From assembly GCA_016932475.1 (NCBI GenBank), contig JAFGCU010000013.1, positions 1-61,418 of the forward strand: a stretch of 61,418 nt of DNA, written 5' to 3'. Within the stretch, counting starts at the first letter, position 1; each line of letters begins with the position of its first letter. Of this stretch, positions 52,084-55,818 are shown one piece after another. Under the pieces are notes generated by a model, which saw only the letters and a program-made list of their open reading frames with translations, did not search any database and was not told where the DNA came from. The translations under genes were made by a program, and so were the position numbers. Source of the DNA: Anaerolineales bacterium. GTDB lineage: Bacteria; Chloroflexota; Anaerolineae; Anaerolineales; RBG-16-64-43.

Positions 52084-52431
52084 TTCCCGGCCTATGCACC
52101 GGTTTCCTCATCCAAGGGCTTGTTATTCTTATACCTTCACAGCCAACAAAACCTTCCATTAATGACTTTGCCGGTAAAAATCCTATCTCCACTACCTGTA
52201 CGATGCGCCCCGCTCCACCTCTCCCTCGCCCTCTTAACCCTCTGCGAGCATACCCCCGCCCGCGATAACTTCGCATCGGGAATTCGCCGATGCTCATCGC
52301 TCGCGGAGCAGGTGCTGGGAGAGTGATAAAAGGGCGAGGGAGAGGATACGTTCGACACCTTTTCACAGTGGATTCAGCAATACACCCCCAAATAAACCAT
52401 GTTATTTACGGCACGGGTATTGACAACCTCG
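52084..52431. repeat. Spacer with nested palindromic repeat
   Basis: CCTCTCCCTCGCCCT (52218-52232) and AGGGCGAGGGAGAGG (52331-52345) are perfect inverted ends of a 128-base element. Inside, GCATCGG-GAATTCG-CCGATGC is the hairpin core of the repeat at 1-118. No gene is seen. Confidence 0.75.
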
Positions 52432-52759
52432 TATAATGAAATCAAGAGCGGGCAGTTAGCACCCACCCAACAGCCCAAATCGAGGGCTTGGTTATGCGGC
52501 GTCGCGTCGGGATTTTTATAATCCCGCTTTCCTTCCAGGGAAACGACAACCGATCCGTGCTGTGCCCGCTCATTTTAATTACAGGAAGCCGAAAAGTCGC
52601 TTAAGGCGGCCGAGCAGCGGTTTTTGCAGACCGAGACCATCGGTAATTTGGCGCGGTCTCGCCCGCCCTGGTCGGGCTGGGCCAGGGATACGCCCGCAAA
52701 GAGCGCGGCTGCCCGGACCCGCCACGGTTTCGCCGGGGCAGGGCTCGACCGGCTTTTTT
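52432..52759 (+). ncRNA. Candidate structured RNA of unknown type
   Basis: TATAAT at 52432-52437 could start an RNA near 52444. Part 1 (52446-52571) is closed by a 9-bp helix GAGCGGGCA / TGCCCGCTC and holds three inner hairpins: AGCCC / GGGCT, a perfect CGGGATT-TTTAT-AATCCCG (52508-52526) and TTTCC / GGAAA, with GTCG / CGAC enclosing the last two. Part 2 (52586-52759) is closed by AAGCCG-aaaa-GTCG / CGAC-CGGCTT, encloses GAGACC / GGTCTC and CCCTGG / CCAGGG, and ends in TTTTTT like a terminator. It does not show the RNase P, tmRNA or SRP RNA core sequences I know. No long frame or homolog-like protein supports coding. Confidence 0.55.
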
Positions 52760-53252
52760 CAAAACCCTAATAAATAATTAATCAGCCGAACTTCTCTTCC
52801 TATCAATTTCCCCGAGGCAGCGCCGCTCATGGGATTCCGAGGGGATCCTCCGGCTCCTTATTCGCCGTAAGAAAGCCTGCCATATAGGGCACAAAAGGCA
52901 CTTGGTATTCCGAAACATTATCTTTGTGCTCTCTGTGTCCTTTGCGGCCGACCCTGACTTCCCCAATCACGGATCGCCGTCATGGTAAAAAAAGACCTGG
53001 ATTCTGGATGAGCATCGGAACGAACGCGCGGAGCGCCATCTATCCGCAATCTCCAGCTCATCATTCCATCATTAAGGATCAGCGGCATGTTCCCGGCGGG
53101 CTGGATCCGCGATCCTCCGCTCCGCACCGCCGAATGACGGCCGGTTTACTCTCATGCCAACGCGAATTCAATTGCCTTCCGAATGTCAGCCTCGCGGAAT
53201 TCCTCTGATACAATCGTTCCGGACGGTTTTTCCGGGTCCAAACGAGGGAATT
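52760..53252. other. Spacer after the RNA candidate
   Basis: About 490 bases. An AT-rich inverted repeat lies at 52884-52948 (AGGGCACAAAAGGCACTTGG and CTTTGTGCTCTCTGTGTCCTT). GATACAAT at 53209-53216 may be the -10 box of the methyltransferase gene. No gene is convincing. Confidence 0.5.
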
Positions 53253-53912: not shown

Positions 53913-54105
53913 CCCCGGCCGGTTCGGATTATGGTCAACCCCGATCGCTTTAATTTCCAGCCGCGATCGGCGGCTGCGGAACAACAGTAAAGGTCAGCGG
54001 TATATTCCAAAACACCCTGTTCCGGCGTGCGCCGCCCCCGGAAAAGTGCTATCCTATACACCTCAGTGCGGATTCTCCGCCCCCGCCTGCGAAGGAGGGA
54101 TTCCC

Positions 54106-55818
54106 ATGCGCAAACCTTTCAACAACCATCACGGGCTGACCGGGAACGCCGTCACCGGTTGCCACGTCGCGTTCTTCGGCCTCGACCTCGCGCCCGGGCA
54201 GCGGCCGGGCTTCCGCGGCTTCGCCTTCCAGCGCACCGACCATGCCGAGGAAGACAAAATCTGGCTGCGGGGGACGAAGACCTTCGAAAAAACGGAACCG
54301 ACTCCCGCGCGGGGGGAGACCTTCTCCACCCGCAAGCACCCGGTCCAATCCTTCCAATGGGCGGATTACAGCGTCAAGCCGGGCCGCCACTACACGTATA
54401 AAATTTTCGCACTGTACGGCGATCCGGCGCACCTCAAACCGAAACACCGGGTAACCGTCCGGATATCGACCGAAACCGAAACCGGTTCCACCCATTCGGC
54501 GTTCTTCAACCGCGGCTCGGTGGCCACCCAGGAATACGCGCGCAGGTTCCTCAACGAGCGGCCGAGCAAGGCCGGGCCGGGTGCCTACGAATGGCTCTCG
54601 CGCGGGTTGCTCGAAGCGTTGACCGCCTTTCTCGACCGCGCCGGCCCGGGTTGGGATATCCACGGCGCGATCTACGAATTCCAATGGCCGTCGGCGCTGG
54701 CGGCGGTGAAGCGCGCCAAGGAACGCGGGGCGAAGGTGAAGGTGCTGTTCGACGACATCGTGGCGCATGATAAGGACGGCAAACCGCTCGGGCCGTGGAA
54801 GCGGAACCGCGAGGCGATCCAAGCCGCCCGGATCAAATCGCTGTGCCAGGGGCTGGCCAACGGCAACCTCATGCATAATAAATTCTTCATCCTGAGCCGG
54901 GACGGGGCGCCGGCGGCGGTCTGGACCGGTTCGACCAACCTGACGGAAAACGGCATCTTCGGACATTCGAACGTGGGCCACATCGCGGAAGACTCCGCCG
55001 TCGCGCAGGCGTACATGGATTACTGGAACCGCCTGAAAAAAGATCCGAAGGTAGACAACGCTTACCGCGGCGCCAACATGGCCAGCACGCCCGCCCCGCC
55101 CGATCCGTGGGACCGGGTCACCCACCCGGTGTTTTCTCCGCGCGGCACGCAGCTGGATTCGCTCGAGTGGTATGTCGCGATCGCGGGCGGGGCCGAGCGC
55201 GGGCTGTTCATGACCTTTCCGTTCGGGATGCACGACAAGTTCCAGGCGGTGTACCGCAGGGATGATGCCGTCCTGCGCATGGCGCTCCTGGACCGGGCGT
55301 ACGGCAGCCCGAACAACAAGCTACGGGATGAAAAAGACATCCAACGCATCCGCAACCGCCCGAACGTCGTCCTCGCGATCGGCAACCGGATCATCACCGA
55401 CAGCTTCGACCGCTGGCTGGCGGAGCTGGATAAGATCACGCCCGGCGTGCACGTCCCGTGGGTCCACACCAAGTACATGCTGGTCGACCCGCTGGGCGCC
55501 TCGCCCACGGTCGTGACCGGCAGCGCCAACTTCAGCAAGGCCAGCACCGATAGCAACGACGAGAACATGCTCGTGATCCGGGGCGACAAGCGGATCGCCG
55601 ATATTTACTTCGGCGAGTTCCTGCGCCTGTACAGCCACTACGCCTACCGCGAGGCGGTCAAGATCTACCTGGACAAGAAGAAAAGGGGGCAACCCGAGGA
55701 GTGGCAGCCGCAGTATCTGTTCGATACGGACGATTGGATGGCGGAGTATTTCGATCCGGCGGACAGGAGCGGACGCTTCATGCGGCGGACGTACTTCGCC
55801 GGACCGATGGCGAAATAA
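54106..55818 (+). CDS. Phospholipase D-like protein
   Basis: A 570-residue protein without a signal peptide. It begins with about 130 residues that look like an Ig-like beta domain, then two PLD halves. The first HKD-like site is MHNKFFIL followed by WTGSTNLTENG; its usual Asp is Ser. The second is HTKYMLVD followed by VTGSANFSKAS, which is canonical. The pairing of one degenerate and one good HKD suggests a nuclease-like or lipase-like enzyme of altered activity. AGGAGG lies before the ATG. Confidence 0.85.
   Translation: MRKPFNNHHGLTGNAVTGCHVAFFGLDLAPGQRPGFRGFAFQRTDHAEEDKIWLRGTKTFEKTEPTPARGETFSTRKHPVQSFQWADYSVKPGRHYTYKIFALYGDPAHLKPKHRVTVRISTETETGSTHSAFFNRGSVATQEYARRFLNERPSKAGPGAYEWLSRGLLEALTAFLDRAGPGWDIHGAIYEFQWPSALAAVKRAKERGAKVKVLFDDIVAHDKDGKPLGPWKRNREAIQAARIKSLCQGLANGNLMHNKFFILSRDGAPAAVWTGSTNLTENGIFGHSNVGHIAEDSAVAQAYMDYWNRLKKDPKVDNAYRGANMASTPAPPDPWDRVTHPVFSPRGTQLDSLEWYVAIAGGAERGLFMTFPFGMHDKFQAVYRRDDAVLRMALLDRAYGSPNNKLRDEKDIQRIRNRPNVVLAIGNRIITDSFDRWLAELDKITPGVHVPWVHTKYMLVDPLGASPTVVTGSANFSKASTDSNDENMLVIRGDKRIADIYFGEFLRLYSHYAYREAVKIYLDKKKRGQPEEWQPQYLFDTDDWMAEYFDPADRSGRFMRRTYFAGPMAK

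Follow-up and report, generated by a model that had tools for sequence, protein, structure and literature searches.

A previously uncatalogued structured RNA in an Anaerolineales genome, with relatives beside IS110-family transposase genes

IS110 recombinases are RNA-guided and are in development as genome-engineering tools. That some IS110 elements carry a second RNA of conserved structure, and that stray copies occur in genomes lacking the transposase, suggests a directly testable layer of control. Published bridge RNAs are located at the left end in the IS110 group and at the right end in the IS1111 group (PMC11208160). In ISPpu9 of Pseudomonas putida (IS110/IS492 family), the small RNA Ssr9 is encoded downstream of tnp; it is ∼180 nt long, lies on the transposase strand, has its own promoter and a predicted terminator, and anneals to the antisense RNA Asr9. 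Tandem and orphan copies of Ssr9 occur, and some ISPpu9 copies lack it (PMC8450116). Ssr9 is the closest precedent for the RNA described here and the sole comparable case found in the literature looked at. The present RNA likewise lies 3′ of an IS110-family transposase gene in six elements (though not at the locus where it was noticed), occurs in tandem and as orphan copies, is carried by some copies of the element only and is preceded by its own promoter-like boxes. Unlike Ssr9 it is convergent with the transposase gene and ∼130 nt long; the likeness drawn here is one of layout. It resembles bridge RNA and seekRNA in being structured, noncoding and carried by IS110-family elements (PMC11208160, PMC11187229); it differs from both by an inward promoter-like box of its own, by its position on the opposite strand and by the lack of a match to the left junction in the four elements tested.

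The window, that is, the whole stretch of DNA analysed, comprises 61 418 nt of contig JAFGCU010000013.1 (assembly GCA_016932475.1). An initial annotation had proposed an orphan structured RNA of about 315 bases, made of two folded domains. This description holds for domain 1, which is a real, previously uncatalogued structured RNA of ∼130 nt on the forward strand, with predicted limits at about 52446 and 52578, that is supported by covariance models R1–R3, homologs and covariation; it does not hold for domain 2. Against dinucleotide shuffles, the folding energy of the 315 nt stretch gave a z value of −3.5 and that of domain 1 alone −4.75. Searches of the window (E up to 10) and of the homolog loci against Rfam 15 returned no match at gathering score, only chance-level ones.

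Domain 1 is preceded by the promoter-like boxes TTGACA (52420–52425) and TATAAT (52432–52437), 6 nt apart; the latter is the box that had been annotated. The annotated perfect closing helix of 9 bp (P1) was read directly in the sequence: GAGCGGGCA (52446–52454) pairs with TGCCCGCTC (52563–52571), so that the domain ends in a closing helix of its own, followed by ATTTTAATT. Within it, P1b is formed by AGCAC (52458–52462) and GTGCT (52557–52561), a helix in which homologs show a double change from A-U to C-G. The P2 hairpin (52472–52488) has the arms AGCCC/GGGCT in the window copy and in its nearest homolog (genome G003), and CCGGG/CCCGG at the equivalent place in other members. P3 pairs TTGGTT (52488–52493) with AACCGA (52548–52553), and P4 pairs GGCGT (52498–52502) with ACGAC (52543–52547), with one mismatch in the window copy. 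The fold is completed by the hairpins P5 (CGGGATT/AATCCCG) and P6 (TTTCC/GGAAA) at 52508–52543.

Conservation beyond the genome of origin was established by a homolog in another genus of the same family (G003), which is 79 % identical, spans 52433–52572 and then stops. A covariance model built from these two sequences retrieved a third member (G099, E 0.0013). Model R2, built from these three copies, all of which lack a transposase, was used to scan 400 genomes of the order and yielded five further members (G135, G193, G352, G128 and G289; E≤1.1e-5). By covariance models and promoter pattern together, the RNA was found in about 10 of the 400 genomes (Anaerolineae, Chloroflexota), usually once per genome. 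Most genomes surveyed were MAGs, and the E values of the models are rough; stricter filters were applied to searches of more than 40 genomes, so weak homologs may have been missed. When positions 52380–52780 were searched against the own genome, no second copy of domain 1 (52432–52572) was seen. A second weak match of model R3, which includes IS110-linked copies, on contig C107 of the same genome proved to be an ordinary hairpin with a T-run, and three loci found by promoter pattern (L103, L104 and L106) look like chance matches. In viral contigs three patterns produced matches, of which R3 recognised none, and a search of plasmids for the RNA gave no matches.

The helices were checked for covariation on the eight sequences, with P1, P1b, P2, P4 and two crossing helices scored as the structure; compensatory changes were present. 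In 34 pairs, 84.2 % of the cells were paired, versus 33–43 % when partners were slid by one to three columns. Changes on both sides were counted in 13 pairs (shuffled mean 7.4), and the covariation score was 0.266 (shuffled mean 0.166), a value reached by 0 of 500 shuffles, which ignore relatedness. P4 was paired in 97.5 % of cells across the family. In the alignment it changes from GGCG/CGCC to AGCG/CGCT in G135, where the crossing helix P3 also changes, from GAGGU/ACCUC to GAGAU/AUCUC. The P3-equivalent helix crosses P2 as a pseudoknot in six f4/f11 homologs; in the window copy and in G003 the centre is arranged differently and P3 is nested, not crossing. Nearly all members carry TTGAC-like and TATAAT-like boxes upstream, with a gap of 6–9 nt in most and ∼3 nt in G289. 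The strand assignment is supported by P1 being followed by a U-run at the RNA end in G193, G352 and G289; over all 34 pairs, G-U accounted for 13 cells and A-C for 12, counts that favour neither strand.

The annotation had left the choice between a trans-acting RNA and a new class; this has been narrowed by the physical linkage of the family, in other genomes, to IS110-family elements. In G352 and G289 (contigs JAPLGV010000288 and JABGQU010000025) an IS110-family transposase gene (PF02371, PF01548) lies on the opposite strand, and the RNA abuts its 3′ end. Homology between the two DNAs is continuous from the RNA promoter as far as ∼280 nt upstream of the transposase start (71 % across 1641 nt). 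In G193 the RNA is followed by a scrap of a transposase 3′ end, a relic. Because R2 was built only from transposase-free copies, its recovery of IS110-linked copies is independent of that link. Genome contigs were then scanned with the G352 and G289 transposases; of the 21 loci found, the close ones are mostly titled Anaerolineae, Anaerolineales or Chloroflexi MAGs. In four of them (L067, L068, L069 and L074), with transposases ∼52–56 % identical to the query, the RNA has the same position and orientation; each copy was recognised by R3 (E 2.4e-9 to 1.3e-5), with no other match in 84 kb. The RNA is convergent with the transposase gene in all six elements, judging its strand from promoter and U-run. 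The transposase frames run on the opposite strand and seem to stop at the P1 region or slightly within it (exact stops were read by eye in some elements). The RNA would lie inside the IS element. Of the 11 transposases with an identity of at least 52 %, five are without the RNA. In G289 a duplication of ∼200 bp (L034, ∼1200–1606) has placed a tandem copy of RNA and promoter beside the IS110 transposase.

Five IS110-linked loci (L066, 3640–3700; L067, 2690–2765; L068, 3900–3975; L069, 3895–3960; L074, 3900–3965) have a second conserved unit of ∼65 nt, which lies ∼50–100 nt past the RNA promoter. Oriented away from the RNA, it combines a TACAAT-like box with the word ACCCCC and a hairpin that has GGTTCGTCTTTTT at its end. 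L102 has a copy as well, there in front of an apparent ATG start. The unit could represent a leader, a further small RNA or a piece of the IS end. At the other side of the element in L068 (2123–2164), the left IS110 end abuts RHS-core codons (ANNNPVRY.DPTG) of an apparent orphan RHS C-terminal cassette. An intact RHS-like gene is present on the same contig, and homology to it breaks off at 2164, a sign that the left boundary of the element is there. L102 was considered as an empty insertion site and rejected, its left-flank match being RHS-gene sequence from elsewhere in the contig.

Five of the eight type-I copies have no IS110 nearby. The window copy is among them and, lacking a transposase, is an orphan. 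In the assemblies G000 (that of the window), G003, G099 and G135, no transposase of this clade was detected anywhere at E 1e-10, and G128 has a partial one elsewhere in the assembly; no transposase remnant was found near the RNA in any of these five. The distribution is patchy, as sister genomes are mostly without the RNA.

Since relatives adjoin the end of an IS110 gene in other Anaerolineae, the window copy looks like a stray accessory RNA. The reading modestly favoured here is that 52446–52571 represents an orphan copy of an accessory noncoding RNA family of some IS110-family, bridge-RNA-guided elements of Anaerolineae, which would act through its fold and modulate transposition, the DEDD transposase or the bridge-RNA complex being its most likely binding partner. 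Transcription would start near 52444–52446 and end after P1 at the U-rich tail. Action through the fold is suggested because the sequence diverges while the helices persist and there is no antisense match to the element 5′ region: complementarity of the RNA to left-end transcripts gave z values of −1.7 to +0.8, and cognate pairs were no better than non-cognate ones. That the fold is conserved more than the sequence also speaks for a protein partner, of which the transposase would be the simplest candidate. The window copy, whether stray or retained, could act only in trans. Counting against an accessory role are the transposase-free copies, the five RNA-free transposases and the lack of left-end complementarity beyond chance. 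A bolder version, which we would put forward only tentatively and think rather improbable, is that of a new accessory RNA class of bridge-RNA-guided IS110 recombinases, pseudoknotted in most members, whose orphans hosts might retain to modulate the element in trans or to serve as decoys against it.

The most serious alternative, although an unlikely one, is that the RNA is a host gene or an independently mobile gene, at the 3′ end of which IS110 elements insert. Insertion of this kind has a parallel in integrases, which use tRNA genes as insertion sites. IS110-free copies do exist in f1 and f4 and have kept promoter and fold, and the placement of the RNA within the IS is itself deduced. A widespread host RNA is improbable because the family is rare and patchy. 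Moreover, the point of abutment is the same in elements whose transposases are only ∼52–56 % identical, and in f11, which has IS110-linked copies, neither the RNA nor IS110 is present in the genomes sampled from the same genera (g93, g101). Frames that end inside the P1 region would also leave no space for a normal right end of the IS ahead of the RNA.

Should the RNA do no more than limit read-through at the 3′ end of the transposase gene, as an antisense or terminator device, the convergent, overlapping 3′ ends and, in f11, the U-run after P1 would be accounted for. The covarying internal fold exceeds what a terminator needs, however, and is kept by orphan copies, so this function on its own is considered improbable.

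That the RNA serves as the guide (bridge or seeker) RNA at the right end, in the manner of the IS1111 group, is considered very doubtful. Its site 3′ of the transposase gene and its length of ∼130 nt do resemble those of IS1111 guide RNAs (PMC11208160, PMC11187229); its orientation opposite to the transposase and its own promoter-like box differ from the published cases. Furthermore, a left noncoding region of the IS110-group type is present, and its conservation is good across nine elements, among them those that lack the downstream RNA. In two of the four elements tested, this region contains an 8 nt word that matches the element's own left junction; in the RNA, no word of at least 7 nt matched the left junction in the four elements tested. 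As far as tested, the RNA does not appear to be the bridge RNA, whose position would be held by the separate left-end region.

A single two-domain transcript of 315 nt, as first annotated, has the adjacency of the folded domains and the T-run after domain 2 in its favour and is hardly credible, since the homology with G003 goes no further than the end of domain 1 (52572) and domain 2 is a dispersed repeat with copies in the genome without domain 1. This repeat copy (52603–52768, forward strand) lies outside the RNA; the annotated T-run is present (∼52753–52758) and belongs to the repeat, not to the RNA. The search with 52380–52780 returned the locus itself and 21 partial matches, all of them in the second half; the nearest copy of domain 2 is 85 % identical over ∼166 nt (about 52603–52766). 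The repeat is also found in a sister species and in G003. The two domains are unrelated and adjoin by chance. Domain 2 resembles REP/MITE-like dispersed repeats in its many partial copies of intergenic type, its inverted repeats and its T-run, a likeness of general features that assigns it to no class and ties it in no way to domain 1.

Two further observations concern the surroundings of the RNA. The window encodes a PLD-like protein of 590 aa (54046–55818), which is 73 % identical to the product of a gene beside the RNA in G003. In both genomes the RNA lies within ∼1.5 kb of these orthologous genes, and the relative order differs; three other family members gave no full-length match to the PLD-like gene. 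RNA and PLD-like gene may have arrived together. As a general partner of the RNA the gene was rejected, being near it in these two genomes only. Upstream of the RNA, the same spacer contains an imperfect inverted repeat of ∼128 nt (52219–52346), the strands of which are 73 % alike.
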